From NCBI GenBank assembly GCA_944324115.1, contig CALUVB010000004.1, positions 62,001 to 126,000 on the forward strand: 64,000 nt of DNA. Reading direction: 5' to 3'. Of this stretch, positions 8,333 through 64,000 are shown piece by piece; position 1 is the stretch's first letter, and each line of letters begins with the position of its first letter. Under the pieces are notes generated by a model. It searched no databases and was not told the origin of the DNA. It saw nothing but the letters and a program-made list of their open reading frames with translations. The DNA is from an uncultured Elusimicrobiales bacterium (lineage in GTDB: Bacteria; Elusimicrobiota; Elusimicrobia; Elusimicrobiales; Elusimicrobiaceae). The position numbers and the translations under genes were made by a program.

Positions 8333-8362
8333 TTGCATTGTTTTTTTTTTTTGATAAATTTT
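8333..8362 (+). promoter_or_regulatory. T12-containing pilin upstream element (copy 1)
   Basis: TTGCATTG, then twelve T residues (8341-8352), then GATAAATTTTAT, ending just before the pilin ATG at 8367. The same arrangement with identical spacing occurs at 17610-17637 before the second pilin. TTGCAT fits a -35 box and TAAATT (8355-8360) a weak -10 with a 16-base spacer. That would put the start of transcription at or next to the ATG. The homopolymer lies inside the spacer, so slippage would change promoter spacing. Confidence 0.6.
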
Positions 8363-8366
8363 ATCT

Positions 8367-8948
8367 ATGAACAAAATTTATCAAAGAATAATTCCCGGAG
8401 AAAAAACTCTTGCCCGAAGCCGATTTGGCTGTTTTGTGCCTGTCATTTTTTCTGCCAGAGATAGGCAATGTCTCCGACCAGTTGGCGGGCGCGGCTTTAC
8501 GCTGATAGAACTGCTGGTGGTGGTGCTTATCATCGGCATATTAGCGGCTGTTGCTTTGCCTAAATATGAAATGGCTGTAGAAAAAGCGCACGCGGCCGAG
8601 GCTATGGCCGTACTGCGCAGCATACGGGAAGCGCAAGAACTATATTATATGGCCAATGGAGCTTATGCCACAAATTTGGAAAGTCTTGATATACAATTGC
8701 CGCAAGATAGCCGCTATTGGGAATTCCGATCTGTATATCTTTCTACATACGCTTACCGTATAAATGTGCCTGTGGAAAAGCATTATTTGTTGAGTATTCG
8801 TTCAAACCAGTCTATAAAAAACGGTTGGGGATTTTTTGTATGCGGATACGATTATGAGCAGGCTAAAGAGTTTGCAGAAAGAATGTGTAAAGCGTTGGGA
8901 GCTACCGAAAAAGACACTGTCGCAAATCGTTGGATTTTATCTAAATAA
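8367..8948 (+). CDS. Type IV pilin-like protein (PilE-type prepilin)
   Basis: 193 residues. The prepilin peptidase site and methylation motif are unmistakable: [25 protein letters not shown], with cleavage after G43 and Glu at mature position 5. The hydrophobic helix is followed by [21 protein letters not shown] and a globular domain with two Cys (in VCGYDY and RMCKAL) that could form a C-terminal disulfide loop. The 43-residue leader is very long for a type IV prepilin and contains two Cys. No better in-frame ATG exists, and no Shine-Dalgarno is visible before the ATG. Whether this is a major pilin, a minor pilin or a pseudopilin cannot be told. No pilus assembly genes are nearby. Confidence 0.88.
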
Positions 8949-17609: not shown

Positions 17610-17637
17610 TTGCATTGTTTTTTTTTTTTGATACATT
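17610..17637 (+). promoter_or_regulatory. T12-containing pilin upstream element (copy 2)
   Basis: TTGCATTG, twelve T residues (17618-17629), then GATACATTTT, matching the element at 8333 in sequence and spacing. A candidate -10 is TACATT at 17632-17637. The first in-frame ATG of the pilin follows at 17643. Confidence 0.6.
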
Positions 17638-17642
17638 TTGCT

Positions 17643-18209
17643 ATGGACAGAAAATACTTACAAAATGTCTTCTTTATGAAAAACACTGTCAAACGTAGAT
17701 TTAGCGGTTTTACGCTGATAGAATTATTGGTGGTGGTGCTGATCATTGGCATTTTGGCAGCGGTGGCTTTGCCGCAATACCAGACGGCGGTGGAAAAAAG
17801 CCATGTTGCACAAGCCTATATACTGGCCAAGCATTTTAAAGATGCGGAAGAGGTCTATCGTATGGCAAACGGGGAATATACGGATTCGTTTGATGAGTTG
17901 GGCGTAGAAATACCGTCAGGCTATCGTATCCAGCAAGATGGCACGTTGGCCGATAATAAATTTTTTACATACGCTTTATTGCGAAATATAGACCGCATAT
18001 TGGTGGGGTATTATTATGACGGGAAATATAACATGAGCCTAAGTTTTAAGTTGGACAGCTTAGGCGCAGAGCGCGTTTGCTGTGCCTATGCCATCACCAA
18101 TTACCGCGCAGAAAAATTGTGTAAAAGCTTGGGGGGACAGGGGAGCGGATCTGCCAGCTGCAATGATGAGAGCGGCGGAAGCGGCTGCCGCTGTTGGACT
18201 TTACCTTAA
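17643..18209 (+). CDS. Type IV pilin-like protein (PilE-type prepilin)
   Basis: 188 residues from the ATG at 17643. The cleavage/methylation site is [24 protein letters not shown] with Glu at mature +5, and then QYQTAVEKSHVAQAYILAKHF. It closely resembles the pilin at 8367 in the N-terminal third, with a different globular domain. That domain has Cys pairs near the C-terminus (CCAYAI, KLCKSL, SCNDES, GCRCW) and a Gly/Ser-rich stretch. The start at 17643 holds the same position relative to the T12 element as pilin 1's start. An alternative ATG at 17676 would give a classic short basic leader (MKNTVKRRFSG). Neither has a clear Shine-Dalgarno. Confidence 0.87.
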   Translation: MDRKYLQNVFFMKNTVKRRFSGFTLIELLVVVLIIGILAAVALPQYQTAVEKSHVAQAYILAKHFKDAEEVYRMANGEYTDSFDELGVEIPSGYRIQQDGTLADNKFFTYALLRNIDRILVGYYYDGKYNMSLSFKLDSLGAERVCCAYAITNYRAEKLCKSLGGQGSGSASCNDESGGSGCRCWTLP

Positions 18210-47910: not shown

Positions 47911-47943
47911 AAATAATGTTTTTTTTTTGATATTTAAAAACCC
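47911..47943 (+). promoter_or_regulatory. G-T10-GATA element before the small Cys-rich ORF
   Basis: A run of ten T (47919-47928) preceded by G and followed by GATA. The TTG of the next ORF starts 15 bases after the G of GATA, almost the same offset as the pilin starts in copies 1 and 2 (14 and 13). The TTGCATTG part is not conserved here. Confidence 0.35.
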
Positions 47944-48207
47944 TTGCTTTTTGTCTGCGTCTTTGGCAAGGTGGCGCTGGCTCAGACAGGCATTGAAGCT
48001 GGTGCTAATTTAGGCAAGATTATGGAAGCAGGCTATGCGGCATTTAGCTCGGGAGGTGCACGGGCTATCTGTCTTTGGCGGGAGGGGAACGGCTGTGCGT
48101 GCAGCCCTAAATGCCAAACATATGAGGAGCGGACCATATGCGGGCAACGCCCCTTACAATCATTTCATAAGGCGGCTTTGGGCAATTGCTGGCGTTTTAA
48201 AGATTAA
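47944..48207 (+). CDS. Small secreted Cys-rich protein, unrecognised
   Basis: Up to 87 residues from a TTG start; a stop codon lies three codons upstream in frame, so no longer form exists. The first 14 residues (MLFVCVFGKVALAQ) resemble the end of a signal peptide. The rest carries six Cys in its second half (ICLWREGNGCACSPKC, TICGQ, GNCWRF), which suggests a disulfide-bonded extracellular peptide. It could instead be a remnant whose true 5' end is lost. A terminator at 48244 follows. Confidence 0.35.
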   Translation: MLFVCVFGKVALAQTGIEAGANLGKIMEAGYAAFSSGGARAICLWREGNGCACSPKCQTYEERTICGQRPLQSFHKAALGNCWRFKD

Positions 48208-48243
48208 CTGTTTAGTAGATAAATATGCAGGTATGTATTTAAA

Positions 48244-48272
48244 CGCTCCGGAAAAACCGGAGCGTTTTGGAT
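48244..48272 (+). terminator. Terminator after the Cys-rich ORF
   Basis: CGCTCCGG and CCGGAGCG form a stem around AAAAA, followed by TTTT. Confidence 0.75.
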
Positions 48273-48277
48273 ATATA

Positions 48278-48301
48278 AAAACCCCCGGCTGGGCCGGGGG
48301 A
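48278..48301 (-). terminator. Terminator after the outer-membrane protein gene
   Basis: CCCCCGGC/GCCGGGGG stem with a T run on the minus strand, 14 bases past the minus-strand stop at 48315. Confidence 0.85.
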
Positions 48302-48314
48302 GAAAGTGGCTGGA

Positions 48315-49112
48315 TTAGAGGAAACGCCAGCGTAAACGGGCAGAGAGGAAAATTTCCGTCTTGAAACCGTCTGCGCTGTGGGTGGCAAATCCCAATTGGC
48401 CGCCTAAATCCATATCATGCGTAAGCACGCGGCTGTAGCCGGCAGCCAAACGCAGGCTGGTGTCGCTGTCGGTATTGTCGGCGCGTTTGCCCAAGAAACC
48501 TAAACTGGCCAAAGCGTCAATGGAATTTACGTCATCAATGTAATATTTCCCGACACCGCCAAAGTAGAAATCTGTGGCGCTTTTTCCATCATCGGTGCTC
48601 CCGATGAAATCTAACGCCGCAAAGCCGCCCCATGTCCATTCTTCCGCACCTTGTGCTTGGCGGCCTACCATTGCGCCTACGCCAAAATCCGTAGAGCCTT
48701 TGGCCACCCCGTCTGGGTGACTGTCCCTGGGAGAGTCAAACAAAGAAGGGCTGAAATGGGCTCCCAGGTCTAATAATAAACCTTCGCCGGCCAAATCTTC
48801 CGTAGCGCGGAATCTTACCCCGAAATCCGGGTCAGTCAATCCGTTTTCGCTATATCCGCCGTCCATTTTTAAATTTGCTAATCCTAACGAAGCATATACT
48901 TCCCATTTGGGAGTTAATCCATAACGGAATGTTTCTTTTAATAACCACTGTTTCGCGCCGTCTCCGCCTTGATAATTGTTGGAAAACCCCAGCTCGCTGT
49001 CTAATAGCTTAGCTGATTTGTCCAACATAAAAAAGGGGTCCGTTGCGGTAGGTTGGGCCAAGACCGGCAAGGCCAAGGCGCATAATGCCAAGGCGAGTGT
49101 TAATTTTTTCAT
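48315..49112 (-). CDS. Outer-membrane beta-barrel protein, unknown role
   Basis: 265 residues with signal peptide MKKLTLALALCALALPVLAQ. Alternating strands with aromatic belts run to the C-terminus, which ends FLSARLRWRFL, a sequence compatible with BamA recognition. Segments such as GLTPKWEVYASLGLANLKMDG and GEGLLLDLGAHFSPSLF resemble transporter-like porins of the 'MetA-pathway' type. No specific substrate can be given. It is monocistronic with its own terminator. Confidence 0.7.
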   Translation of the reverse strand: MKKLTLALALCALALPVLAQPTATDPFFMLDKSAKLLDSELGFSNNYQGGDGAKQWLLKETFRYGLTPKWEVYASLGLANLKMDGGYSENGLTDPDFGVRFRATEDLAGEGLLLDLGAHFSPSLFDSPRDSHPDGVAKGSTDFGVGAMVGRQAQGAEEWTWGGFAALDFIGSTDDGKSATDFYFGGVGKYYIDDVNSIDALASLGFLGKRADNTDSDTSLRLAAGYSRVLTHDMDLGGQLGFATHSADGFKTEIFLSARLRWRFL

Positions 49113-49167
49113 ATATCCTCCTAATATTAAGATATTTCATTATATCTATTTGCCTGCAGTTGTGCAA

Positions 49168-49197
49168 TAAAAAACCCCGCCCAAAGGCGGGGAAAAA
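49168..49197 (-). terminator. Terminator after the thioredoxin-like lipoprotein
   Basis: ACCCCGCC and GGCGGGG stem with T runs on the minus strand. Confidence 0.85.
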
Positions 49198-49209
49198 TAA
49201 GGAATTTTA

Positions 49210-49695
49210 TTAGTCCAGCAGTTTATTAATTTCTTGACTGTACTGTTGGGCTAAGCTGTCGGAATATCCACTCCAAAGACGGACTAAATTATGGTTTTGG
49301 TCAAACAGCATAATATGAGGAAAACCTTGCACCATCAAATCTTCAGCCGCTTGACCGCCTTGGTAAAGAATGACGGATTTCAAGTCATAATCTTTCATGA
49401 TTTGCTTTACGGCATCTTCGTCATTATCCACATAAATACCGATGACTTGTACGCCTTTGTCTTTAAATTCCGTATTGGCGGCTTCCAAAGCGGGCAAAGA
49501 GCGTTTGCACCAGCCGCAATAAGAAGCCATGACGGCCACTAATACCGGCTGGCCTTGGTGGTCAGCTGATTTCCATACTTCTTCGCTTCCGGCGATGGGT
49601 AAGGTAATATCCAGCTCCGGTGCTTGGGGTATATTCACGCATGCGCTTAACAACATGGCTGCAACGCCTGCAACTAATAATGTTCTTAATTTCAT
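49210..49695 (-). CDS. TlpA/ResA-like thioredoxin-fold lipoprotein
   Basis: 161 residues. The signal peptide ends in lipobox LSAC (Cys at residue 19). The thioredoxin active site is ASYCGWCKRSLPALEAAN, and the cis-Pro loop is VQGFPHIMLFDQ. This fits a membrane-anchored thiol-disulfide reductase of the TlpA/ResA type, helping cytochrome maturation or reducing periplasmic thiols. The CGWC dipeptide is a little unusual (CEPC or CGPC are commoner). Divergent from the outer-membrane protein at 49796. Confidence 0.85.
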   Translation of the reverse strand: MKLRTLLVAGVAAMLLSACVNIPQAPELDITLPIAGSEEVWKSADHQGQPVLVAVMASYCGWCKRSLPALEAANTEFKDKGVQVIGIYVDNDEDAVKQIMKDYDLKSVILYQGGQAAEDLMVQGFPHIMLFDQNHNLVRLWSGYSDSLAQQYSQEINKLLD

Positions 49696-49795
49696 GAAGA
49701 TAGTCCTTATTATTAATGAAGATATGTATATTGTACTTAAAATTTTTGAAAATAGATATAATATACGTGAAGAATACTATATTAAAGGAGATTGT

Positions 49796-50548
49796 ATGAA
49801 AAAAATAGTGTTGTTGTTTGCTTTGGTTGTAACTTGTGGTACTGTAATGGCACAGACAAGTTATTATAATTATAATCAGCGTTCTAACAGAAACACTTCT
49901 ACTAGACAAAATGCATCTTCAGTCCAAAAAACAAATTTTGCATCTTCCGAATGGCTTAATCAGCGCTATATCGTATATCTCGGCATTGGTGGCGGCGTGC
50001 ATGTAAACGGAGAAGACAGCGTGCCTATGGAAAGCGGCATATTTTGGGGAAATTTGGGCGCGCAGTATTTGATTAATGAATATATTTCTTTGGGCTTGGA
50101 GGGTACTTTAGGCCGCACGTCTGGTAAAGGAGATGGACTTGCGGTAACGGAGCAAATACCTCTTTGGGCAAAAGCGGAACAAGATGACGATTATTTGTTT
50201 GATTGGGGAGTAGGTTTGGCGGGGCGCTTCTATCTGAAACCTTCCGGAAATATCCGTTGGTATGTGCCGGTAGGCGGCGGATATATGTATATGGAACGCC
50301 GAACGAAATACGATATTAAAGCAAATCCGGATTATCCGTATCCGTTTCCTCCGTCTTGGGCTGAGGATAGCGTAACAGAAAAGAAAAAGGCGGGAGACGG
50401 CGCTTATGTGTATGCTGGCTTGGGGGTAGAATATGTGTTGCCCTCGGGATTCGCTGCCGGATTGGAAACCCGCTTCCAATCGTTCAAGATGGCCGGTACA
50501 TGGCTGCAAACGGTAAACTTAGCGGCCAGCCTTGGGCTTCACTTTTAG
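49796..50548 (+). CDS. Outer-membrane beta-barrel protein (OmpA/porin-like fold)
   Basis: 250 residues with signal peptide MKKIVLLFALVVTCGTVMAQ. A Ser/Asn/Gln-rich 40-residue segment follows. A barrel then begins at RYIVYLGIGGGVHVNGE, continues through YISLGLEGTLGRTSGKG and GAYVYAGLGVEYVLPSG, and ends LAASLGLHF with the terminal Phe of Bam substrates. AAGGAG sits five bases before the ATG. No enzymatic residues are recognised. Confidence 0.75.
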   Translation: MKKIVLLFALVVTCGTVMAQTSYYNYNQRSNRNTSTRQNASSVQKTNFASSEWLNQRYIVYLGIGGGVHVNGEDSVPMESGIFWGNLGAQYLINEYISLGLEGTLGRTSGKGDGLAVTEQIPLWAKAEQDDDYLFDWGVGLAGRFYLKPSGNIRWYVPVGGGYMYMERRTKYDIKANPDYPYPFPPSWAEDSVTEKKKAGDGAYVYAGLGVEYVLPSGFAAGLETRFQSFKMAGTWLQTVNLAASLGLHF

Positions 50549-50596
50549 TTAGCCCGTCTTTTTGTATATAAACAATCCGTACAGTCAGTATTATAC

Positions 50597-50620
50597 AACC
50601 CCCGGCTACGCCGGGGGATA
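50597..50620 (+). terminator. Terminator after the beta-barrel gene
   Basis: CCCCCGGC/GCCGGGGG stem with a TAC loop and T-rich tail. Confidence 0.8.
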
Positions 50621-50718
50621 TTTATTAAAATCTGTCGGCCAAGTTCCGATAGATTTTTTGTTTTTCTGATAAAAATAAAGTCCCGCTGCGTGTCCTATAA
50701 ATAAAATATCCCGTTTAG

Positions 50719-50880
50719 TTACGGCTGCTTTATCAGTTTGGGGCGCAAGGTTTGCCAAGCATAGGCCTAGGCCTGGGCGTCTATGAACTGCCCGCGGATA
50801 AAAAAGCATTTGCTATGCGACAAACCTACAATGTGGAAGGGGGCCTAATTAGAATTGGCATGGCGTACAATATAAAAGCG
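50719..50880 (+). pseudogene. Remnant of an outer-membrane protein C-terminus
   Basis: An open frame without a start codon reads YQFGAQGLPSIGLGLGVYE, then MRQTYNVEGGLIRIGMAYNI, in the style of a beta-barrel C-terminal strand. It is open from 50719 after a stop and continues beyond the strand into unrelated low-quality sequence. No signal peptide or Shine-Dalgarno is present. It looks like a decayed copy of a barrel gene such as the one at 49796. Confidence 0.3.
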
Positions 50881-51006
50881 CATGTCATCTCTTGGTTGGG
50901 AAGCTGGGGCTTCTTACTGTCATTTTACTGCCATTTGTTTTGCTGTTTGTTGCGTTTGTGTTGTTTGTATTTATGTGATTTTACGACGAGAAAAAACCAA
51001 AAATAA

Positions 51007-51034
51007 GAGAGCCGCCTTGTAAAAAGCGGCTCTC
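51007..51034. other. Hairpin GAGAGCCGC/GCGGCTCTC
   Basis: A perfect nine-base-pair stem around CTTGTAAAAA, with no T tract. It is the last GC-rich structure before the AT-rich region starts. Confidence 0.5.
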
Positions 51035-51061
51035 ATCAAAACGTACCGACATAGAAGTGAA

Positions 51062-51196
51062 ATGAGGCCTCTTTTGGATTCGTTTATAGAGCGTGCCAAA
51101 GAGATACGGATACTTCGTCAGCACTTGGAAGAAGCAAAAGAAATTCAGAAACGTATTGAAAGGTTTGATTCTGCTGATAAAATCCTATCATTTTAG
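51062..51196 (+). CDS. Small coiled-coil ORF, 44 residues
   Basis: MRPLLDSFIERAKEIRILRQ followed by a charged helical stretch (HLEEAKEIQKRIERF). It looks like a continuous amphipathic helix. No clear Shine-Dalgarno and no known homologue recognised. It is near the probable left edge of the AT-rich region. Confidence 0.35.
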   Translation: MRPLLDSFIERAKEIRILRQHLEEAKEIQKRIERFDSADKILSF

Positions 51197-51229
51197 GTGT
51201 TTCTTGCTAATTCCATTTTTGCTTTCTGC

Positions 51230-51241
51230 TTTAAATTTAAA
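51230..51241. promoter_or_regulatory. TTTAAATTTAAA palindrome before the 51268 ORF
   Basis: A 12-base perfect palindrome, GC-TTTAAATTTAAA-AC, 27 bases before an ATG. It matches the elements at 57104 and 61234. Confidence 0.4.
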
Positions 51242-51267
51242 ACCTTAATACAGGAGACAGAGCAAAA

Positions 51268-51423
51268 ATGGAAAATAATACATTAAAACAAGAATCCAAA
51301 GCCCGTTGGACCAGAGTCTTAAAGCCCACTTTTAAGCCTAAGGCCAATGGAACTAATGCGCGTTGGACTATTTTATTGAAATAGGCTGAATTTGATGAGA
51401 TGCTAAAGAATATAGAAAAATAA
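51268..51423 (+). CDS. Small basic ORF with an in-frame TAG
   Basis: From ATG with AGGAG eleven bases upstream it encodes 38 residues (MENNTLKQESKARWTRVLKP, then FKPKANGTNARWTILLK) and stops at a TAG at 51382-51384. The same frame continues for twelve codons (AEFDEMLKNIEK) to a TAA at 51423. The repeated R-W-T motif is notable. Either the first 39 codons are the gene, or a stop has broken a 50-residue one. Unknown function. Confidence 0.35.
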
Positions 51424-51425
51424 GA

Positions 51426-51454
51426 AACCCCCAAGTTTTGGCTTGGGGATTTTA
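51426..51454. terminator. Terminator between the small ORF and the repeat protein
   Basis: CCCCAAG and CTTGGGG with a TTTTGG loop and a T-rich tail; the A run on the other side lets it serve the minus-strand repeat gene too. Confidence 0.7.
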
Positions 51455-51478
51455 ATTCAGATATTCCAGATAGAATTT

Positions 51479-52381
51479 TTAAAAACTATAGGTTGTAGTA
51501 TTTCCAAACATATCGGTAGAAGACCTATAAGTGGTTCCATTGCTTCCACGAGTGGTAGTGTTACCGAACATATCCGTAGAACTGCGATAAGTGGTTCCAT
51601 TGCTTCCACGGGTGGTAGTATTACCGAACATATCCGTAGAACTGCGATAAGTAGTTCCATTGCTTCCACGGGTGGTAGTGTTACCGAACATATCCGTAGA
51701 ACTGCGATAAGTAGTTCCATTGCTTCCACGAGTGGTAGTGTTACCGAACATATCCGTAGAACTGCGATAAGTGGTTCCGTCGCTTCCACGAGTTGTGGTA
51801 TTCCCGAACATATCGGTAGAAGAACGATATGTTACATTCTTTTTTGTTGGCAATAAAATAGGGGACTTATATGTTGTTGAATCTGAATCAGAGTCAGAAT
51901 CTAGGTCAGAGTCATACCAAGAAGTCTTTTTTTGCTTTTTATTATTAATATCAAAAGTATTATTTGACGGAGAATAGGTGTTCTTTTTGTAATTATAGCT
52001 AGGGGTGCTAATTACTAAAGGATCATCATCTTCTTCCTCATTGGTATCATATCCAGAGGCATAAGTAGTATTGCCTATTTTTGTATAAGTTGAACCATCA
52101 GAGCCATAGGTGGTGTTACCTATCTTCGTATAACTAGTACCATCAGAACTATAAGTAGTGTTTCCTATTCTTGTATAAGATGTGCCATCAGATCCATAAG
52201 TAGTATTACCAATTTTTGTGTAGCTAGTGCCATCGGAATTATAGGTGCTATTTCCTATTCGTGTATAGGTGTTTCCCGCAGACCCATAAGTAGTATTGCC
52301 AATGGTAGTGTAAGTCTCATCCCAAGCGAATGAATTTATAGATAGAAATAAAGCTAAACTTGATATTAATAGTTTATACAT
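51479..52381 (-). CDS. Signal-peptide protein built from two tandem repeat families
   Basis: 300 residues. Signal peptide MYKLLISSLALFLSINSFAW, preceded by a strong AAGGAGG. Repeat family one (residues about 23-112) is six 15-residue units of the form YTKIGNTTYGSDGTS. A linker follows, with an acidic patch and a Ser/Asp run (DLDSDSDSDS). Family two is six 20-residue units TYRSSTDMFGNTTTRGSNG with almost no divergence at DNA level, ending TTYSF. It is probably periplasmic or secreted; the regular turns suggest beta-solenoid or fibre-like packing. No catalytic motif is seen. I used the ATG at 52381 rather than one seven codons upstream, because of the Shine-Dalgarno. Confidence 0.7.
   Translation of the reverse strand: MYKLLISSLALFLSINSFAWDETYTTIGNTTYGSAGNTYTRIGNSTYNSDGTSYTKIGNTTYGSDGTSYTRIGNTTYSSDGTSYTKIGNTTYGSDGSTYTKIGNTTYASGYDTNEEEDDDPLVISTPSYNYKKNTYSPSNNTFDINNKKQKKTSWYDSDLDSDSDSDSTTYKSPILLPTKKNVTYRSSTDMFGNTTTRGSDGTTYRSSTDMFGNTTTRGSNGTTYRSSTDMFGNTTTRGSNGTTYRSSTDMFGNTTTRGSNGTTYRSSTDMFGNTTTRGSNGTTYRSSTDMFGNTTTYSF
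51481..51840 (-). repeat. Six 60-bp tandem repeats in the repeat protein gene
   Basis: The six units line up base for base in 60-base steps with very few substitutions, and encode the 20-residue repeat. Such near-identity in an AT-rich gene implies recent expansion or gene conversion, and copy number probably varies. Confidence 0.9.
52052..52325 (-). repeat. Six 45-bp tandem repeats in the repeat protein gene
   Basis: Encodes the 15-residue IGNTTYGSDGTSYT units. These are more diverged than the 60-bp repeats, so this array is older. Confidence 0.75.
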
Positions 52382-52503
52382 ATGTTCCTCCTTGTTATGC
52401 ATTATACAATAAGTTTTTAGTATTACATTCCAATGTTTTCCTACTATCCAATCAATTAATGCTAATACTGGAATTCACTAAAGTATTGGAGATTTGAAAT
52501 AAC

Positions 52504-55500
52504 TTATCCATAAAAGGGACGCGTCCCCTTGCAAGCGGGATAGTGAGAGCAACCATAAAATTTCCCATATGTTCCTTCTCTAACAAGCATTGACGCTCCG
52601 CATTTTGGACAACCTAAATTTGTATTTTTGCAGTATTTACAAATTCTTCCATATTTTGAAACTAAATTACTATCATAAAAATCGCTTATTGGCCTAATTT
52701 GTTTACATTTAGGACATTCTTTCATCTGTCCGGAAGCTACCCCGTTTACTGTATTTTTGATAACAGAACTCATATCCTCTTCTGCAGGGATGGTATATTC
52801 TTGGAGCAAATTTTTTAATCTAGAATTCAGTGTCTTAATAGGTTCTTCTCCTAAATTAAAGCGATTTATTCTCAAAAATTTATATCCATAACTTTCCAAT
52901 ATTTTTTGTCTGTATATATCTTGTTCCGTATAATAGTTTTCGTAATTATTCGAGTCGATATTTTGACTTTGTTGAAAGTGAAAATCGAAACCATCATATT
53001 CGATAATAATTTTGTGAGTCTCGATATCATTTTCTTTGTATAGTAATAGAAAATCAACCCGATAATTAGGGTTTTGGTAAGTAGAATCAATTTGGGAGAG
53101 ATATTCGCCAAGTTTAAATTGGGGGCGGAATTCTATGTTTTCTTTATTCTCGTTATAGAAATCGGTCTGATAAAAGAAATGTAAAATCTTTTTTTCCATA
53201 GCAGATTGCGGATCAGTTTCGTTAGGCAACGCTTCTTTTTTGCTATTTTGCCAAGTCGCATAAAAATGCCGCAATGCTTCTCCGATTGCACCATTATATT
53301 CCGAAATTGGTTTACTAAGAACAAAATGAATTTGTTCTTTTGCACGACTAAAACCGACATTCAGTCTTTGCGCTCTCAGTTGTCCATCGGCTTCAATATC
53401 TACAGATTTTAAATCCTTAATAAAAACCCCGCTTAATCTGTCACTATGTTCGGAAGCAACCATTGAATAAAAAATAATATCTCTTTCTTCACCTTGGCAG
53501 GTATCAAAAGTCATAATTTTTAAATGTAAATCTGATTCAAAAAAATCTTTATTAATAGAATCAGAGACAAGTTGTAATAATAATTTTTGTTGATTTGTAT
53601 GCGGAGTTATGATCCCCACAGAAGCTTTCTGTCCTTCTTCCTTCATTTTATTTAACTGTTCCAAAATAAATTCGGCTTCTTCTTTATTGGTATTGGGTTT
53701 ATCTTGCTCAGCAGAAGAAGTTATAAAAGAGAATTTTAAAACATCATCTATCATTTTTCCGCGAATCTTCATCACTTGAAGACTTTTGTTGTAGAAATTA
53801 GTATTTGAATAAGATATTAATTCTTTATAACCCCTAAAATGCTTTTGAAGTTGAGTACTATAATTGGCAATAAAATCAAAAAAATCCAAAATAGAGGTTT
53901 TAATATTAAATTTATCTAATTTGGTTCGTTTTTCAGGATCTCTAGAAATATGATTAACAAAAGAAGATCTCAATTGATTAACATATTGGAGATTAACCTC
54001 TGTTTTTGCCTGATTAGTTTTAACGTTACTGAATTGCTTTCTATCTCCTAATACAACAACTTTTTTAGCTCGAAGGAGGGCGGGAAAAGCTTGTGCAATG
54101 CTCACCTGAGACGCTTCATCTATGATGATTAAATCAAAAATATTAGGCAAAAGTGGTATATATTCAGCATAATCTCTTATCCCGGCTAAGATACAAGGGA
54201 AAGCTTCTTTAAGCTTAGAAAAGATATTCCTTGGGAATTTTTGTTTAGCCTTGATAATCTCTTTTAATGTTTTGGCTGTATTTCTATTTTCATCATAAAA
54301 AGAAATAAGCTGATCATCTATTTGATAAGCCATTTTGTAGGTAACATCTTTTTCTAATAATTCTTTTTGGGCCAAAAAAGAAGATTCTGGTAATGTTTCA
54401 AAAGTTTGCGAAAGTGCAATTCGCTGTTTTAAGTAATCAATTAATTTTGAAAAATTCTCTTCCGAATAATTTGTAAAAAAATTCGAGAGGACAAAGGACA
54501 AGGGCTCCTTTAATGGATCAAAGTCTCTTAGAAACGGATATTTATTTATTAGTACAGATAACGCAGAAAAATATTTTTCAATAGATAAGAGTCCTTGTAT
54601 TTGATCAATAAGAATTTTATTTTGTAAGAAAATATGTAATATTTTTACTTTGTCAAAATATACCTTTTTTGAAAATTTAGAGGAGAACTCTTGAACAGCA
54701 AAAGTCATTATATCTGATAAGAGAGAAAGTTCTTCCAGTTTTTTATGAGGCTCTATTGAACCATTTATATTAAATGTCTTTCTGAATTCTAAATTTTGTT
54801 GGGCAACGAATTTTCCTTTAAACAAAAAACCAAATACAGGGGTTTTATTTTGAATATATATATTAATGTGTTTTTTTATTTTATCGATATCCTCTTCTTG
54901 TAAGGATGAGAAGAGTTGGATAACCGAAAGCTGTTCACGATAGATATTAGTTACTTTTTCTTTAACTTGCAAAAGGTTATTTAGTCCCGCAATATATGTT
55001 TCTAAGTCGGAAAAGTTTTTTAAGTCTTCTAATTTGAAACCTAGCATTTGCAGTAGTGGTTGTTCAGGATTAAGTTTGTTTTTTATTGAAGAAAAAAGAC
55101 TTTTGATTTTAATCAAATCATCTACTGCATCTTGTGATAAAAAACAATGAATATCAAACGGAAGTTTTTCCATTTTGATAATGTTTTCTAAGCACACAAA
55201 ATCATCAATATTTTTCAGTTTAATAGCATCATATAATGAAATTTCTTTTTGAATATCTTTTTTCAGTGAAGTAGTAATTTTTTCAATATCTCGTTCTATC
55301 TGTTTTATTTTATTATCTAAAACAGAGTGAAAATTTCTTATTTTATCAATACTTTGTGAACTTAAAATCTGGTTGTAAGTAGAGCCAGCCTTTCCAAGTC
55401 TTAATATAGGGTTTTGAAAATTTTTATCATTCCGTATTTTATTGATGGCTCCGGTAATCTTATCCTCAACAACATCCAAGGCTTCTTTCTTATCAGAAAG

Positions 55501-56979
55501 AACCAAAATTGATTCATTTTTCAAAATAGCATCGCATACCATTGCTGTAATAGTATGACTTTTACCTGTTCCAGGAGGCCCCTCTACAACAATATACTTA
55601 CACTTTTCCTTATTTATTGCGCTTAGTATCTGCCGTTGCTCTCTATTTAACGGGATAGGACTTTTATAAATAAGCTTATCTTCAGTAGGCAATTCTTTCC
55701 AATCAGATTTAATATTCTTAATGAAACTTTCTGGTTCTTTATGAATAAAGTCATTAATTAAGGTGTAGAATGAATTTACTAGAATAGGGTCTTCTTTAGC
55801 CAAAAGATCTAAAATTTCTTCATAATCATTAACGAGAGCCTCATCTGATCGGTCAAATAGGGCGATATACATATTTGTATTAATTTGGCAGAAAAAACCT
55901 TTAGAAATCTGTTTTTGAGAATCGGCCAAATCGATTTTTTTATCTAGAGAAAAGAAAATAATAAGGCTATTTAAAATTTTATTTGTTACTTTTTCCAACT
56001 CAATATCTTTTGTTAAATAAATAATTCTTTCTTGAATATCTTCAATATTCCCCATCTTCCCTGTAGCTTTGTTATATTCCTGAGCAATAAAATGGAGGGC
56101 TCTTTTATTAATAAAAAGCTGTGTGCCAAACTCAATGGTGTTTTTTTGGTTGAAATAAATCGGGATGTAAAAAATTGGGAATTTTTCTTTTTGGTATACA
56201 ATTTCTCCAAAATAAAGATAAAACTCTTGTTTATCTAATACCTTATTATTCCTTTTTAGTTCTTCCACCTCAGAGAATAAATCTCCAATTTGAAAGTTTT
56301 CAAAAAAACTATAAATAGTTTTTTGAACTTCAGTTTCTTTTAAAATGGATAATAATTCTTCAGATATATTTGTTTTTTTCTCAAAAATGAAATTTTTTAC
56401 AATTTCTTCTGTTTTACTTTTTAATAAATCGCATAAAACATCCGTCAATTCTTCTTCCAATGCATAGGTTGTTTCAACATCATTTGAACTTAATTTAATA
56501 ATCTGGGTATCTAAAGAAGAAATAAGAGGAACAACTATTTCTTTTTTAATAACAGTAGAAATAGCAGGTGTTATTTTGGCTATAATTTCTCCAAAGTCAC
56601 CATTGGTTTGTTTTGTAATCTTTAGAATAGATTGCTTGATTACTTCTGCAACATATTCCATTTTCTTTTTTGTAATGGTAAAGTTTGTTAATTCTTTTAC
56701 TATTGATAGAGTTTTCTTTGGAACAGAAGTTTTGTAAGTATTTGGAGGAAGAGTTAAAGAATCTACAAAATTTTTCCTAAAAGCTTTATGAACAGCCGAA
56801 GAAAAAGAAGGATACTTATATAAAGAAATCCCCACTCTTAAATTGTCACTATTTATAGTTTTGATAGATCTTTTTGGCCATTTCTGTTTTTTAAAATCAG
56901 TTTCAAGGAAATCCATAAAATATTTGGATAGTTCCTTGATAAACTCAATTCCTTGAAAGCGATTTTGTTGTTCGGCCAT
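52504..56979 (-). CDS. Giant SF1 helicase with C-terminal nuclease and zinc ribbons (putative defence protein)
   Basis: 1491 residues and AT-rich. The first ~440 residues are of unknown fold. Walker A is VVEGPPGTGKSHTIT (GPPGTGKS 467-474); a long, mostly helical insert (about 500-930) follows. Walker B is LIIIDEASQVSIAQAFP (about 951-957), then VVVLGDRKQFSNV, IMTFDTCQGEERDIIF (1155-1170) and RLNVGFSRAKEQIHFVLS, a UPF1/Dna2-type SF1B motor. After it comes a DUF559/Vsr-like PD-(D/E)XK fold (YRVDFLLLYK to IIIEYDGFDFH, D1309 and E1327/D1329). Two zinc modules end it: C1422/C1425/C1447/C1450 and a topoisomerase-type C1457/C1460/C1477/C1483. Architecture and island setting suggest anti-phage defence; that is inference. 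Nearest alternatives are DNA repair or plasmid maintenance. Confidence 0.8.
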   Translation of the reverse strand: MAEQQNRFQGIEFIKELSKYFMDFLETDFKKQKWPKRSIKTINSDNLRVGISLYKYPSFSSAVHKAFRKNFVDSLTLPPNTYKTSVPKKTLSIVKELTNFTITKKKMEYVAEVIKQSILKITKQTNGDFGEIIAKITPAISTVIKKEIVVPLISSLDTQIIKLSSNDVETTYALEEELTDVLCDLLKSKTEEIVKNFIFEKKTNISEELLSILKETEVQKTIYSFFENFQIGDLFSEVEELKRNNKVLDKQEFYLYFGEIVYQKEKFPIFYIPIYFNQKNTIEFGTQLFINKRALHFIAQEYNKATGKMGNIEDIQERIIYLTKDIELEKVTNKILNSLIIFFSLDKKIDLADSQKQISKGFFCQINTNMYIALFDRSDEALVNDYEEILDLLAKEDPILVNSFYTLINDFIHKEPESFIKNIKSDWKELPTEDKLIYKSPIPLNREQRQILSAINKEKCKYIVVEGPPGTGKSHTITAMVCDAILKNESILVLSDKKEALDVVEDKITGAINKIRNDKNFQNPILRLGKAGSTYNQILSSQSIDKIRNFHSVLDNKIKQIERDIEKITTSLKKDIQKEISLYDAIKLKNIDDFVCLENIIKMEKLPFDIHCFLSQDAVDDLIKIKSLFSSIKNKLNPEQPLLQMLGFKLEDLKNFSDLETYIAGLNNLLQVKEKVTNIYREQLSVIQLFSSLQEEDIDKIKKHINIYIQNKTPVFGFLFKGKFVAQQNLEFRKTFNINGSIEPHKKLEELSLLSDIMTFAVQEFSSKFSKKVYFDKVKILHIFLQNKILIDQIQGLLSIEKYFSALSVLINKYPFLRDFDPLKEPLSFVLSNFFTNYSEENFSKLIDYLKQRIALSQTFETLPESSFLAQKELLEKDVTYKMAYQIDDQLISFYDENRNTAKTLKEIIKAKQKFPRNIFSKLKEAFPCILAGIRDYAEYIPLLPNIFDLIIIDEASQVSIAQAFPALLRAKKVVVLGDRKQFSNVKTNQAKTEVNLQYVNQLRSSFVNHISRDPEKRTKLDKFNIKTSILDFFDFIANYSTQLQKHFRGYKELISYSNTNFYNKSLQVMKIRGKMIDDVLKFSFITSSAEQDKPNTNKEEAEFILEQLNKMKEEGQKASVGIITPHTNQQKLLLQLVSDSINKDFFESDLHLKIMTFDTCQGEERDIIFYSMVASEHSDRLSGVFIKDLKSVDIEADGQLRAQRLNVGFSRAKEQIHFVLSKPISEYNGAIGEALRHFYATWQNSKKEALPNETDPQSAMEKKILHFFYQTDFYNENKENIEFRPQFKLGEYLSQIDSTYQNPNYRVDFLLLYKENDIETHKIIIEYDGFDFHFQQSQNIDSNNYENYYTEQDIYRQKILESYGYKFLRINRFNLGEEPIKTLNSRLKNLLQEYTIPAEEDMSSVIKNTVNGVASGQMKECPKCKQIRPISDFYDSNLVSKYGRICKYCKNTNLGCPKCGASMLVREGTYGKFYGCSHYPACKGTRPFYG

Positions 56980-57077
56980 GGCGATATGATTTTCCTAAAT
57001 AATATACTAATACAATTCTAACATAAACAATATAGATAATAAAATTTAATTCATGTTAATTTTTACAAGACTAACTA

Positions 57078-57144
57078 AATCCATCAGTTTTTTCCAAAAC
57101 TTGTTTAAATTTAAAACAAGTAGCAAAGGGGGAACTGATGGATT
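57078..57144 (+). promoter_or_regulatory. Long stem-loop covering the RBS and start of a small ORF
   Basis: AATCCATCAGTT (57078-57089) is the exact reverse complement of AACTGATGGATT (57133-57144), which contains the ATG at 57138. The stem extends through U-G pairs of TTTT (57090-57093) with GGGG (57129-57132) and C94-G128, so the Shine-Dalgarno AAAGGGGG is paired too. Inside, ACTTGTTT (57099-57106) pairs with AAACAAGT (57114-57121) around the TTTAAATTTAAA core. As RNA this would block translation; as DNA it could be a protein or replication-origin site. Confidence 0.65.
57104..57115. promoter_or_regulatory. TTTAAATTTAAA palindrome, copy in the stem-loop
   Basis: Centre of the stem-loop. About 40 bases around it align with the sequence before the excisionase-like gene (61221-61255), sharing TTTTTTC, AAA, GTTTAAATTTAAAA and AAGTA. 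Confidence 0.5.
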
Positions 57145-57242
57145 ATTTTATGTATACGGTTATGGCTTTTCTAAATACGATTCACTTCATATGTGTCGTT
57201 TTTCTGCTTTCTTTCTGGCTGCAAGAATTGATTAAAAAATAA
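57138..57242 (+). CDS. 34-residue hydrophobic membrane peptide (toxin-like)
   Basis: MDYFMYTVMAFLNTIHFICV then VFLLSFWLQELIKK: one membrane helix with a basic C-terminal end, the layout of type I toxins and small phage membrane peptides. The Shine-Dalgarno is AAAGGGGG seven bases from the ATG, but both are buried in the stem-loop at 57078-57144. A terminator follows at 57268, so this is its own short transcription unit. It lies divergent from the giant helicase. The gene is short and coding status is inferred from RBS, topology and isolation; no homologue is recognised. Confidence 0.5.
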   Translation: MDYFMYTVMAFLNTIHFICVVFLLSFWLQELIKK

Positions 57243-57267
57243 CTTATCAAACAACAGCCCGCTCCTC

Positions 57268-57301
57268 CACCCTCAGCCTTACCGGTTGGGGGTGTTTTTT
57301 A
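57268..57301 (+). terminator. Terminator after the membrane peptide
   Basis: CACCCTCAGCC pairs with GGTTGGGGGTG (two wobble pairs) around TTACC, followed by six T residues. Confidence 0.8.
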
Positions 57302-57340
57302 TCGGTTAATGTGCATTTCTAACTATTAATTCAGTTTCCA

Positions 57341-57377
57341 GTTTAAATTTATGTGGCCTATGCTGCACGAATTTAAA
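57341..57377. promoter_or_regulatory. Split TTTAAATTT half-sites before the replication gene
   Basis: GTTTAAATTT (57341-57350) and GAATTTAAAAC (near 57367-57377) are inverted half-sites about 17 bases apart, in front of the ATG at 57394. They resemble the two halves of the palindrome found elsewhere in the island. Confidence 0.4.
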
Positions 57378-57393
57378 ACAGAGGAATTGGATT

Positions 57394-58617
57394 ATGTTTG
57401 ATAAGTTTACAATGTATGCAGATAGAGCAGATTTCAGTCGTGTACCTAGCCCGATAGAACTAAATAATAAAGACTGGTTAATAAAACACCCACCGCAGTA
57501 TTTTCCAAAGGTTAGTTATTGTTCAGGCAGTTACTTTGGAAATTCATTTAAAATAGAAGTCTCTATACCTAAGATCCTATACGGAAACAACTTCTTTGAA
57601 GCCCAAGAGAGCGATTTTGAAACTTTTTTGGACAAATTAACTATACAGCTTGAGAAAATGGGGTTTTGTATTGGGAAAGACATGCTCCGCTATAATCAGT
57701 CCATTTACAATATAGAAATCGCTAAAAACTGCATTTTAGGTAATATCCCAACCTCTGTTGTATTGGGAAATCTATATAAAAGCAAGGCTCCAAGACCGCA
57801 AATGAAATTAGTAGGTAAGGATTGGATACCAGGAGAACAAGTCAGATTTATCGGTGCTAGTCATGAAATAACCTTCTATGACAAATACCTTGAGTTAGTA
57901 ATGGCGAAACGGAATCAGTTTAACTTGGATTGGTTATTCCACAGGTCTGACTTAAAAAATATCCTACGCATGGAAATAAGACTTAAAAAGGAACAAATTA
58001 AGCAGATATTTGGCGATAGACCCACCTTAGAAGAGATGTTTAAAGAGAGATACTATCATAAGGCAGTGCAAAAGTATTTTGGGCCAATGGCAACCTATTT
58101 GCTAACACATCAACCTTATGTTACCCCTGATACAGAACTTTTACTATACAAAGATGAAGAAATGAACGCCAGCAAAATGAAAGATTTGTTCCTAGTAAAA
58201 AGCTTAATTAATGAGCATGGCTATATATACGCAAAGAAAAGATTAAAGGACTTGTTTGGCGATAAAGAAGCTAATAGAATATTTGCCCTTCTAAAGAGAT
58301 ATCCACCTATGGAAGTAGTTCAGCCGGAATACAACTTTCTACCTATGCTAGCAGAGCAGATAAACCAACCTAAGTGGCTTACTCCTGCAAATATTGTTAG
58401 TTTGGAAGTGCCTAATGTTAAATCTGAAAACTTTTTAGAGGAATCTCTTTGGAATTGTGCCCAGTCGGCAAAATACCTAGGGGTCGGGCCTAGGGAAATT
58501 CAAAGAAGGTGTAAAAATAAGGAGATTCCAAGTATTGTTATAGCTGGTTCCTACCGAATACACAAGGCTGATATAATGGCTTATGCGTACAGAGAGCAAC
58601 GAAAAAAGGGCTCATAG
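57394..58617 (+). CDS. Replication-initiation-like protein (phage gpII/Phage_CRI type) with C-terminal HTH
   Basis: 407 residues. The first ~250 residues have the character of filamentous-phage/plasmid replication initiators: DKFTMYADRADF at the start, KVSYCSGSYFGNSFKIEVSIPKILYGNNF, FDKLTIQLEKMGF, a ITFYDKYLEL block, and LKNILRMEIRLKKEQIKQIFG. These are the strands around which the catalytic His/Tyr residues of such enzymes are placed; the active Tyr is not identified with confidence. The last ~60 residues are an excisionase/MerR-like HTH (SAKYLGVGPREIQRRC, GSYRIHKADIMAY). That end-on fusion could be a DNA-recognition domain for its own origin. AGAGGAATT precedes the ATG. Confidence 0.55.
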   Translation: MFDKFTMYADRADFSRVPSPIELNNKDWLIKHPPQYFPKVSYCSGSYFGNSFKIEVSIPKILYGNNFFEAQESDFETFLDKLTIQLEKMGFCIGKDMLRYNQSIYNIEIAKNCILGNIPTSVVLGNLYKSKAPRPQMKLVGKDWIPGEQVRFIGASHEITFYDKYLELVMAKRNQFNLDWLFHRSDLKNILRMEIRLKKEQIKQIFGDRPTLEEMFKERYYHKAVQKYFGPMATYLLTHQPYVTPDTELLLYKDEEMNASKMKDLFLVKSLINEHGYIYAKKRLKDLFGDKEANRIFALLKRYPPMEVVQPEYNFLPMLAEQINQPKWLTPANIVSLEVPNVKSENFLEESLWNCAQSAKYLGVGPREIQRRCKNKEIPSIVIAGSYRIHKADIMAYAYREQRKKGS

Positions 58618-58642
58618 TACTACAGTAGTTAAACAAAACAAA

Positions 58643-58679
58643 AATAAATGCTTCTTAAGATAAATAAGAGGCATTTATT
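58643..58679 (+). terminator. Terminator of the replication gene
   Basis: AATAAATGCTTCTT and AAGAGGCATTTATT form a 13-of-14 stem around AAGATAAAT. The AT-rich stem is consistent with the composition of the island. Confidence 0.7.
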
Positions 58680-59534
58680 ATTTAAAAGAATCAAAATAAA
58701 AATAGAAAACAAATAAACCCGATATAATAACCAATAAAATAACAGAAATACCAAGATAAAAACCTATTGATTGATTTATTTGTATAGAAGAATAAAAATA
58801 GAAAATAAAGAAAAATCTAAATACAAAATAAAGTTATAAGAAGAAATACCAATACAGTTTTAAGTAAATCTATAAATTTTTGTTTTAGTTATAAAAATCA
58901 TCTAATACTTTTTTAATACCAATACAAATTTACTTAATTAACTCTTCCTGTTATAAATATCAAATAAATTATCTTTCTATTATTTGTTAATTCCTTTGTT
59001 TTTGTGTTTTCTAATAAAAGCAGTAATATATTTTTAATATTTTATTAAAAGTACAAATAGAAACTTAACCTAAAACTATATATTTCTTAATTAAAGATTT
59101 TTCTATTTTCTTTTGATTTTTTCCCATTGTTTTTTCTTTATTTATTTTGTTCTACATATTATTTTTTAATCTTTTTAATTTGTTTATTTTAAGAGCATTT
59201 TATTTAAAAAACCATAAACTATATACCTTTTACAATAAAAACCTATTAAAACCTGATTTTGAGCATTTAAAGTATATTTGTATTACTGTATCACAAACAA
59301 AAAACCTATCCCGTTATTAAAAGAGATAGGTTTGTTAAAAAACATAATCAATTAATAGTCTAAATTCTTTTTGATATGCAAATTTTTTTCTTTTTTTAAA
59401 AGCACAAAAAATATGGCAATATATTTGGATATTGCTTTTCTTAACATCTGCTGTTGCAAATTCTATCACTTGAATAGTTGCTTGCTTTTGATTTCTATAA
59501 TAAGCGGGAGATATTCGGTGAGTATGTTTATTAA
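58680..59534. other. AT-rich gap with short direct repeats
   Basis: About 850 bases of very AT-rich DNA without a credible ORF, directly downstream of the replication-like gene. It holds a 12-base direct repeat AATACCAATACA (58845-58856 and 58915-58926), each copy followed by TAAGTAAAT or its inverse ATTTACTTA. ATAAAAACCTATT also occurs twice (58756-58768, 59235-59247). Near 59303-59332 AACCTATC pairs with GATAGGTT. This could be an origin or regulatory RNA region; nothing proves it. Confidence 0.4.
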
Positions 59535-60971
59535 CTATTCATCTTGTTGATTAAATTGTTTTAAAATTTTCCGGATCTCTTCTATAGAAATATTCAATTC
59601 TTCTTGTGAGTAGATTTTGTTGAGAGTGTTTTCGGGATGATGTATATAATTCCTGATGTACGTAAAAAGAGTGCAAAAATATTTCGTATTATATTTACAA
59701 TTTAGCCACTCTTTGTTTAAAGAAATCTGATAATACATGTCTAGGTGTTTATCAAACTTTTTTTGATCAAAAAGATTCAATCGCTCCATCAGTTCTCCGT
59801 AAAGTTCATTAAAATATTCCGTTGTAATTAAATCAAAAGCCAAGTAATTAATTTCATTGGCAGAAATATACGACAAAACCCGTTCTTTTATTGATGAACT
59901 TTGAATTTTTCCTTCTTCTTTTCGCAATGCTTTGGTATTTATTTTGCAATGCAGAAACATTTGTTTTAACAGCAATGGGGAATGCGTTGTGATAATGATT
60001 TGAGCAACCTTTGATAGTTCTAATAGGACTTGAACGAATTTCTCCTGCAATTCTGGATGCAAATGTAATTCTGGTTCATCAATCAAAACAATTTCTTCTC
60101 TCTGCTTTTCTTCAATACTGGATAATAAATATAACAATGAGAAAATCATTTCATAGCCACTTCCCATTTGGTTCAAAGATAGATGGATTCCTTTGGGGGT
60201 AACATGTGCAAAAAAGGCTCTATCAAATGGATGAAAAGGATCTAGGGTTTTTAGGTTAACAGAAATACCTACCGCATCTTGAAATTTCTGAATGGTATGC
60301 TTTAGTATGTGACTATTTAGATCTTTTTTAAGCTTATCAAACTCGACGTCAATATCTTTTGTTGCTTTTCCCTGATATAAAACCTGTCTGTTTAAATCTT
60401 TCATAATTCTGTCAAATTTAGTGTCATTAAAGGTTCCTGTTTTGACGGAGTAATGTCTGTTCTTCTCTATATAAGTAAAACCAAAATCAGGAAAGCGATT
60501 TCCAACCCATGGATTACGTACCGAAACTCTTATATCCGGAGAATTATCGTCAGGTTTTTCATTTTTATCTGTTTTAATAACTGTTAAGTCATGTACCACT
60601 GGTGAAGCTAAATATGTGGCATTTTTCACACGCATATTAGCTTTAAATTGAAATCCTTGGCCGCTATATAAGGTTTTTGTTGATACTACACTCTTGTATG
60701 TAAAGGCTTCTTTCGTAATCCCTCTGATTATAAGTTCTCTTTTAATATCATTAAAATCCGAGATCGATATAGAATCTCCTCTATATTCAGAGAAACATAG
60801 GCTAATTGCATCTAAGATGCTAGTCTTTCCTGTGCCATTATTTCCCAATAACACATTTAATCCAGAACCTATTTCTCCGTTTGGAGTAGAAAATTCATCC
60901 AATATAAATGCTTTTTTAGTGTCTGTCTCGTAAATACGGAAATTACTTATTGATAGGCTTTTAATAAACAT
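59535..60971 (-). CDS. OLD-like AAA ATPase with C-terminal HEPN-like R-x4-H motif
   Basis: 478 residues. RecF/OLD-type start SLSISNFRIYE, Walker A LLGNNGTGKTSILDAIS (GNNGTGKT 43-50), the signature-like LSLNQMGSGYEM (264-275), Walker B EIVLIDEPELHLHPELQEKF (293-), and the H-loop ITTHSPLLLKQ. There is no Toprim domain. Instead the last ~100 residues are helical and contain YIRNYIHHPEN, with R440-x4-H445, the RNase motif of HEPN toxins. An ATPase that gates a HEPN RNase would fit an abortive-infection defence gene. Nuclease role and target are inferred. It is monocistronic and AT-rich like its neighbours. Confidence 0.7.
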   Translation of the reverse strand: MFIKSLSISNFRIYETDTKKAFILDEFSTPNGEIGSGLNVLLGNNGTGKTSILDAISLCFSEYRGDSISISDFNDIKRELIIRGITKEAFTYKSVVSTKTLYSGQGFQFKANMRVKNATYLASPVVHDLTVIKTDKNEKPDDNSPDIRVSVRNPWVGNRFPDFGFTYIEKNRHYSVKTGTFNDTKFDRIMKDLNRQVLYQGKATKDIDVEFDKLKKDLNSHILKHTIQKFQDAVGISVNLKTLDPFHPFDRAFFAHVTPKGIHLSLNQMGSGYEMIFSLLYLLSSIEEKQREEIVLIDEPELHLHPELQEKFVQVLLELSKVAQIIITTHSPLLLKQMFLHCKINTKALRKEEGKIQSSSIKERVLSYISANEINYLAFDLITTEYFNELYGELMERLNLFDQKKFDKHLDMYYQISLNKEWLNCKYNTKYFCTLFTYIRNYIHHPENTLNKIYSQEELNISIEEIRKILKQFNQQDE

Positions 60972-61233
60972 AAAGATCCTCTCTCTGCTTAATTACAACT
61001 GAAGTGTTTACTAGGTAATGTGTATTCAAAATAGAAACTAATTAATATGTACAAATATTCTTATCAACAACTAGGAAAATTTTCATAGAGTTGTTATTTT
61101 TTAGGGTTTCCAAAGGTTCCCATTCTCCAATTTTACATATCATATTGCTTTTATTATACATAAGATTTTCTTTTTTCTCCTGCGTGTTTTAGGCTTATTT
61201 TTCCCTATACAGATCAATTTTTTCAAAATCTAG

Positions 61234-61245
61234 TTTAAATTTAAA
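61234..61245. promoter_or_regulatory. TTTAAATTTAAA palindrome before the excisionase-like gene
   Basis: Same palindrome as at 57104, with similar flanks (TTTTTTC upstream, GAAGTATATAG downstream). It lies about 90 bases before the ATG at 61337. Confidence 0.5.
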
Positions 61246-61336
61246 AGAAGTATATAGATTTGTGTACAAAAATACATTTATATCTATTACAAATTTATTC
61301 TTCTTTTTAATCTAAAAAAATAAGGAAATAAGGAAT

Positions 61337-61561
61337 ATGGAACAAAATCATAAAAGATTAGTAAGCACAAAGGAATTAGCCCAATATGTTGGATCAAGTG
61401 AGAATAGTATACGTAGCTTGAAATCACAAGGCAAAATCCCCTCTCAATGGGTAATAAATATCGGAAGATCTGTCCGTTACGACCTCAATGAGGTTGATAA
61501 ATGGATTGAAAGTAAAAAAGAAGCCAATAAAACAAATATTTTGACAGGTTGGAGCATTTAG
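61337..61561 (+). CDS. Excisionase-like / MerR-type HTH protein
   Basis: 74 residues. The winged HTH is plain: LVSTKELAQYVGSSENSIRS (helices 1-2), LKSQGKIPSQWVINIGRSVRY (wing) and DLNEVDKWIE. This matches HTH_17/AlpA-like excisionases and phage regulators. With the serine integrase 1 kb downstream it probably helps excision, or regulates element genes through the nearby palindromes. Its last codons are three bases from the next ORF. Confidence 0.8.
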   Translation: MEQNHKRLVSTKELAQYVGSSENSIRSLKSQGKIPSQWVINIGRSVRYDLNEVDKWIESKKEANKTNILTGWSI

Positions 61562-61563
61562 TT

Positions 61564-61920: not shown

Positions 61921-62083
61921 TGTGTGGTCGGGAAAGGCTGGTTGAGAGAATTTAGTGTATATTTACTATTTTCTTAATCGAATGAATCTTATGCCATAAA
62001 GGAGTTTGAGGATATGTTGCAAGAAAGCAAAAACTCGGTTTCTTTATAGAAAATAGAAAATTTAAAAATAGGTCAGAGTGAAT

Positions 62084-62212
62084 ATGAGCTTCGAGAAAGA
62101 ATTAGAACAAGAAAATTCAATCTTGAGAGAAGCGGAATTCCAAGAGGAAGAGGAAGCCATATTCCAACTTTTCAAGATTTTGTACAAATTACGAAAAATA
62201 AATATCAAATAA
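62084..62212 (+). CDS. Small acidic helical ORF, 42 residues
   Basis: MSFEKELEQENSILREAEFQ, then EEEEAIFQLFKILYKLRKIN. A strongly acidic first half and a basic second half form a probable amphipathic helix. Shine-Dalgarno is poor. It resembles small transcriptional or anti-repressor peptides in mobile elements only in size. Confidence 0.35.
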   Translation: MSFEKELEQENSILREAEFQEEEEAIFQLFKILYKLRKINIK

Positions 62213-63955: not shown

Positions 63956-64000
63956 GTAAAACTATACTGTTATTTTACCAAATTTCATCGGCTTTGGCTA

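Follow-up and report, generated by a model that had tools for sequence, protein, structure and literature searches.

Two type IV pilin genes in a 64,000-nucleotide (nt) stretch of DNA from an uncultured Elusimicrobiales bacterium (hereafter the window) are preceded by the same 24-nt block, TTGCATTG-T12-GATA, in which T12 is a run of twelve T (8333–8356 and 17610–17633). Comparison of the genome containing the window with those of its relatives reveals that this block belongs to a promoter common to dozens of dispersed pilin genes, that the T run lies in the promoter spacer and is held at twelve, that a palindrome is centered on the start codon, and that the pilin bodies downstream have been replaced at loci where the promoter and the 5′ part of the gene are retained. 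Collectively, these comparisons make it probable that the T12-spacer promoter, its maintained length and the palindrome head a conserved 5′ module with exchangeable bodies. Both window proteins carry the prepilin GFTLIE signal and N-methyl helix of type IV pilins, with PF07963 over cut-off, and a Pfam profile search found N_methyl, ComP_DUS and Pilin_GH over cut-off in pilin 1. The features of the two genes are as follows.

8333–8340, + strand: TTGCATTG of pilin 1
8333–8338, + strand: putative −35 element TTGCAT of pilin 1; across two genomes, the majority of 117 pilin promoters have TTGACT or TTGCAT here
8341–8352, + strand: T12 tract of pilin 1, 12 of the 16 base pairs (bp) of the promoter spacer (8339–8354)
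8353–8356, + strand: GATA of pilin 1
8355–8360, + strand: putative −10 element TAAATT of pilin 1; TAnnnT here in nearly all copies, and TACAAT, TACGAT and the like in Shine-Dalgarno-led pilins of relatives
8353–8382, no strand assigned: 30-bp palindrome GATAAATTTT-N10-AAAATTTATC, start codon at its center; 8350–8385 with its TTT/AAA extension
8367–8948, + strand: open reading frame of type IV pilin 1, 193 amino acids; ATG at 8367, the start codon being the predicted transcript start (leaderless)
8490–8948: body of pilin 1, 3′ of the conserved helix
17610–17617, + strand: TTGCATTG of pilin 2
17610–17615, + strand: putative −35 element TTGCAT of pilin 2
17618–17629, + strand: T12 tract of pilin 2
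17630–17633, + strand: GATA of pilin 2
17630–17639, + strand: left palindrome arm GATACATTTT of pilin 2; right arm degenerate in this copy
17632–17637, + strand: putative −10 element TACATT of pilin 2, positioned as in other copies
17643–18209, + strand: type IV pilin 2, 188 amino acids; ATG at 17643, N_methyl over the Pfam cut-off
17696–18209: body of pilin 2, 3′ of the conserved helix

The T12-spacer promoter of the pilin genes

The host genome (G000), that of an Elusimicrobium-like gut bacterium, comprises 1.53 Mb in 25 contigs and has 95 N_methyl matches. Upstream of 62 of its 90 pilins with readable upstream DNA stands a TTGnnn...T(8–18) block, with exactly T12 in 45 copies and T8–T18 in the others; in the close relative G043 the block is found at 55 of 98 pilins, with T12 in 44, which gives 117 promoters from the two genomes. 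Across the whole host genome the loose pattern TTGnnTnn-T8 matches 63 times, nearly always before pilins, compared with four matches for the reversed pattern, and the stricter T12 form matches 39 times compared with none. The block at the two window pilins is thus real and far beyond chance. However, what the initial annotation had described as a matched pair is only two of 62 copies, a number that rules out a two-copy coincidence or a local duplication. Its statement that the two blocks have identical spacing holds within the 24 nt but not for the distance to the start codon, which differs by one base; its "immediately before" the ATG stands for 14 nt (pilin 1) and 13 nt (pilin 2), counted from the end of T12. 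The T run is not an ordinary AT-rich feature either, because runs of at least ten T in G043 are almost confined to pilin promoters (55 of 56 lie upstream of pilins, and one of two apparent exceptions itself precedes a pilin). In G043, the G-rich strand, presumably the leading one, carries all 55 T12-type pilins, compared with 434 of 776 long open reading frames.

The promoter is also widespread among relatives. The search of related genomes that the initial annotation had suggested found the strict T12 form in 57 of 90 genomes of the family and the reversed control in none, in collections holding one assembly per species. N_methyl pilins occur in all 90, with 12 to more than 80 matches (80 scored) and up to 257 first-look candidates. 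A protein search recovered uncultured Elusimicrobium records among the relatives, and scanning the relatives' contigs with a single protein returned mostly unrelated pilins; for the comparisons below, G043 was read nearly completely and a second close relative, G050, at 30 T-tract loci. Two genomes of 1.5–1.7 Mb, G004 and G020, show extreme pilin expansion, with 238 and 257 first-look N_methyl candidates, respectively; G004 has no strict T12 promoter.

By comparison among copies and relatives, the T run lies inside a 16-bp spacer between a −35 element (TTGACT or TTGCAT) and a −10 element (TAnnnT). Relatives in which pilins carry ordinary, Shine-Dalgarno-led 5′ leaders fix the −10 position. In these, T12 is followed by GCTACAAT, GATACACT, GCTACGAT, GGTATGAT and similar sequences, such that TACAAT, TACACT, TACGAT or TATGAT, all standard −10 boxes, come directly after T12-GN at one fixed position. 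The window class has TAAATT or TACATT at that position, and three host pilins without the palindrome have TATCCT, TATGCT or TACCCT. From TTGnnn to TAnnnT the spacer measures 16 bp in 86 of the 117 promoters (44 host, 42 G043) and 16–18 bp in 95, in keeping with a sigma-70-type promoter (TTGaca-like −35, 16–18-bp spacer, TAnnnT −10). The earlier placement of T12 between plausible −35 and −10 boxes is thereby borne out. A sigma-54 reading of TTGCAT was rejected by reasoning, given that many copies have TTGACT and that the −10 TAnnnT is conserved. One host promoter (C16:46970) has a mixed homopolymer spacer of ~18 bp, T10 followed by G9.

In both window genes the −10 box ends shortly before an in-frame ATG, with a gap of 6 nt after TAAATT in pilin 1 and of 5 nt in pilin 2, and there is no Shine-Dalgarno sequence; transcription is therefore expected to start at the start codon. 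Leaders differ in length among copies, but the ATG is nearly always in frame with the pilin helix. The leaderless mRNA suggested by the initial annotation fits this pattern, and a transcript start at the start codon is predicted for most copies. Leaderless genes of Mycobacterium tuberculosis (PMC3898074) and Deinococcus-Thermus (PMC12340547) likewise have TAnnnT a few nt before the ATG and no Shine-Dalgarno sequence. The M. tuberculosis leaderless promoters lack a −35 consensus (PMC3898074), whereas the pilin promoters have a conserved −35, a fixed 16-bp T-rich spacer and a palindrome centered on the start.

Many host contigs (C3, C4, C5, C6, C16, C18, C19, C20, C22, C24 and C25) end at or beside pilin genes, so the number of tandem pilin copies is probably higher than the assembly shows. 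Elsewhere in the window, an orphan T10-GATA tract at 47919–47928 has no recognized pilin directly downstream, and across 48001–64000 the G+C fraction drops from ~0.48 to 0.37 and 0.31, which suggests an acquired region.

Length of the T tract

The tract is exactly T12 in 89 of the 117 promoters (76%), leaving about a quarter off twelve. At the KBL locus, T12 is found in all five species that have this promoter class before the pilin, and also in a sixth (G044), where it precedes a Shine-Dalgarno-type pilin. No off-twelve length is common to orthologues across the 30 loci collinear between the host and G043. The dominance of T12, its recurrence in five species at one locus and the absence of any common off-twelve length indicate that twelve is a maintained length. 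Recent duplicates with leaders 94–98% identical nevertheless differ in length, T12/T8 once (C23:5207 and C23:1098) and T12/T13 twice (C16:26763 and C16:27393; C10:94517 and C10:100169), which shows that the tract does slip.

The initial annotation had read T12 as a slippage-driven switch of pilin expression. In such a model, tracts that gain or lose T would alter the −35/−10 spacing and switch every pilin independently of the others, a combinatorial form of phase variation. A homopolymer within or adjoining the core promoter, as in known phase-variable promoters, is indeed found here, and the near-identical duplicates of unequal length, like the quarter of copies off twelve, are what slippage would leave. 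The prevalence of T12 among the copies and among species at one locus, the lack of shared off-twelve lengths and the presence of mutS speak against it. Switching is thus so far unsupported by the comparisons, and although the duplicates leave room for it, a length so nearly fixed across relatives, an outcome of the kind that the initial annotation had named as refuting, leans against a freely switching tract. We regard the switch as possible but doubtful, and the main signal in these sequences, as far as the data now go, is not phase variation. Neisseria opc (poly-C) and nspA (poly-A) are likewise surface-protein genes with a homopolymer in their core promoter, where slippage can change the spacing; in nspA, the poly-A lies next to the −10 and its length tuned expression, with no switching detected (PMC6389960). 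In contrast to both, the tract here is T12; it recurs before ~60 genes and is strongly kept at a single length.

The start-codon palindrome and the exchangeable pilin bodies

The T12 tract runs into a palindrome of consensus GATAnATTTT-N10-AAAATnTATC that covers the region from the −10 to about +16, with the ATG at its center and a right arm that doubles as coding sequence for MNKIYQ or MNKMYQ. Its arms co-vary. Among 66 distinct sequences, pair 5–26 is Watson-Crick in 74%, compared with 41% in shuffles, in A-T, C-G and G-C versions, and pairs 6–25, 7–24, 9–22 and 12–19 behave likewise; a T-A version of pair 5–26 is found in C13:19559, a copy with a 31-nt palindrome. Nine copies, most of them with a right arm that matches poorly, were left out of an alignment of 57 sequences, for which the covariation score is 0.158 compared with 0.079; none of 500 shuffles scored as high as 0.158, and pairing falls to 29–53% in slid registers. 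The palindrome at pilin 1 gives a DNA hairpin z of −3.1, and in G043 all 45 strict palindromes stand at pilins. Some copies, including L291 and L304, keep the palindrome with the translation start downstream, which indicates a role not tied to the start codon. Three host copies (C16:26763, C16:27393 and C16:41935) have the palindrome without a central ATG, their start codon lying ~45 nt past the T run after an AAAGAGG Shine-Dalgarno-like stretch.

Downstream of the promoter and helix, the bodies of T12-type pilins often do not follow their loci. Between the host and G043, the best body match of T12-type pilins lies at the same collinear locus in 11 of 30 cases (with one more near tie), and for pilins without the T12 promoter in 15 of 16. 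At four loci compared between G050 and G043 (L401, L403, L413 and L421), promoters are 95–100%, leaders 89–100%, helices 87–98% and downstream flanks 90–96% identical, whereas bodies are only 42–46% identical. This match of promoter, leader, helix and flank around unrelated bodies argues that the T12 block heads a conserved 5′ module carrying replaceable bodies. In 40-nt windows at the BirA and KBL loci, identity drops from ~90–95% to 25–55% where the helix region ends and is back at 92–97% past the gene. The BirA-locus body of G050 is shared with the more distant G014 and not with its sister G043, and two neighboring bodies occur in swapped order in the host (C18:17346/18031) and G043 (C5:19418/18784). 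Within one genome, several neighboring units have leaders 95–100% identical and bodies 22–26% identical. Replacement is thus seen when species or paralogues are compared, and not within a strain. Locus-specific retention of leaders is seen only in the closer pair G050/G043; between the host and G043 there was none, leader identity being no better than for random pairs. The simplest route for body replacement would be homologous recombination through the helix-coding stretch; comEC and dprA are present, but both are common genes.

Surface-exposed pilin bodies diverge readily, and these patterns might reflect orthologous pilins diverging very fast under selection, with no exchange. The abruptness with which identity falls where the helix region ends, its recovery after the gene, the body that G050 shares with G014, and the swapped neighbors make this very unlikely. 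The palindrome itself might move pilin cassettes as a site-specific recombination site; its 11-bp arms and 8 bp between them are lox/dif-like in size, tandem arrays of ~600–700-bp units exist, and bodies are exchanged. The readable 5′ breakpoints, however, lie in the helix-coding region and not at the palindrome, so we rejected the palindrome as the exchange site and hold a recombination role to be highly improbable. Alternatively, with a transcript starting at or before GATA, the palindrome could act as an mRNA hairpin that controls translation, which would suit the co-varying arms and an ATG placed in the loop. Yet the left arm contains the −10, so that a transcript starting 6–8 nt downstream would lack that arm, and the copies with downstream start codons keep the palindrome. 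We therefore consider an RNA hairpin unlikely and favor a DNA-level role, in which the palindrome is most likely the site of a dimeric regulator controlling all pilins together, or a DNA hairpin.

A candidate expression site for pilin bodies

We propose that the block is the core of one common sigma-70-type promoter, TTGACT/TTGCAT followed by a 16-bp spacer NN-T12-GN and TAnnnT, copied upstream of ~60 dispersed type IV pilin genes, with transcription predicted to begin at the ATG in most copies. The T run would be kept at twelve because it sets the promoter spacing, slipped copies being sporadic. The palindrome would bind the putative dimeric regulator or form the DNA hairpin, and promoter, palindrome, leader peptide and helix-coding start together would constitute the conserved 5′ module. 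With the body after the helix replaced by recombination, this module would work as an expression site with exchangeable bodies. Of this model, the comparisons establish the promoter anatomy, the constraint on tract length, the palindrome and the replacement of bodies, whereas the transcript start, the regulator and the recombination route are inferred. Several points weigh against this model. The assemblies, one per species, are mostly metagenome bins, and homopolymer lengths may carry assembly error. The degenerate right arm of the second window copy implies that some copies can do without the palindrome, which is also often missing from pilins with ordinary leaders. A simple homodimer site, moreover, would not predict co-varying arms, and template-switch correction of quasi-palindromes during replication could be a source of matched arms.

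Neisseria pilE/pilS pilins also combine a conserved N-terminal helix and 5′ part with a variable body that is replaced by recombination, in a single expression locus fed by silent promoterless copies. The conserved 5′ part with a replaced body is found here as well, but the silent donors and the single expressed copy are not; instead, 62 complete genes are dispersed, each under a promoter of its own. Elusimicrobium minutum belongs to the same bacterial family, Elusimicrobiaceae, with many N_methyl pilins. A shared pilin promoter, palindrome or body exchange in elusimicrobia is undescribed in the literature searched, which did not extend to the publication on the E. minutum genome (Herlemann 2009, cited in PMC8809381).

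The more surprising findings are the palindrome and the body exchange. It is conceivable, though we put this forward tentatively, that the ~60 sites constitute a genome-wide pilin repertoire system, in which the promoter-leader-helix module is retained, bodies are exchanged among sites and strains, and the output of individual sites is set by occasional slippage, so that a gut commensal would have a combinatorial surface. A 1.5-Mb commensal with ~90 pilin genes, of which two thirds share a virtually identical T12-spacer promoter and a dedicated palindrome, represents an unusual system of surface diversity in a phylum that has received little study. For a single promoter, nature here supplies dozens of variants in spacer length; the system further provides a candidate site for the regulation of all pilins, and expression sites at which protein bodies differ by replacement from one close species to another. 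Were the tracts also to slip within populations, this would amount to combinatorial phase variation on a large scale beyond the classical pathogens.
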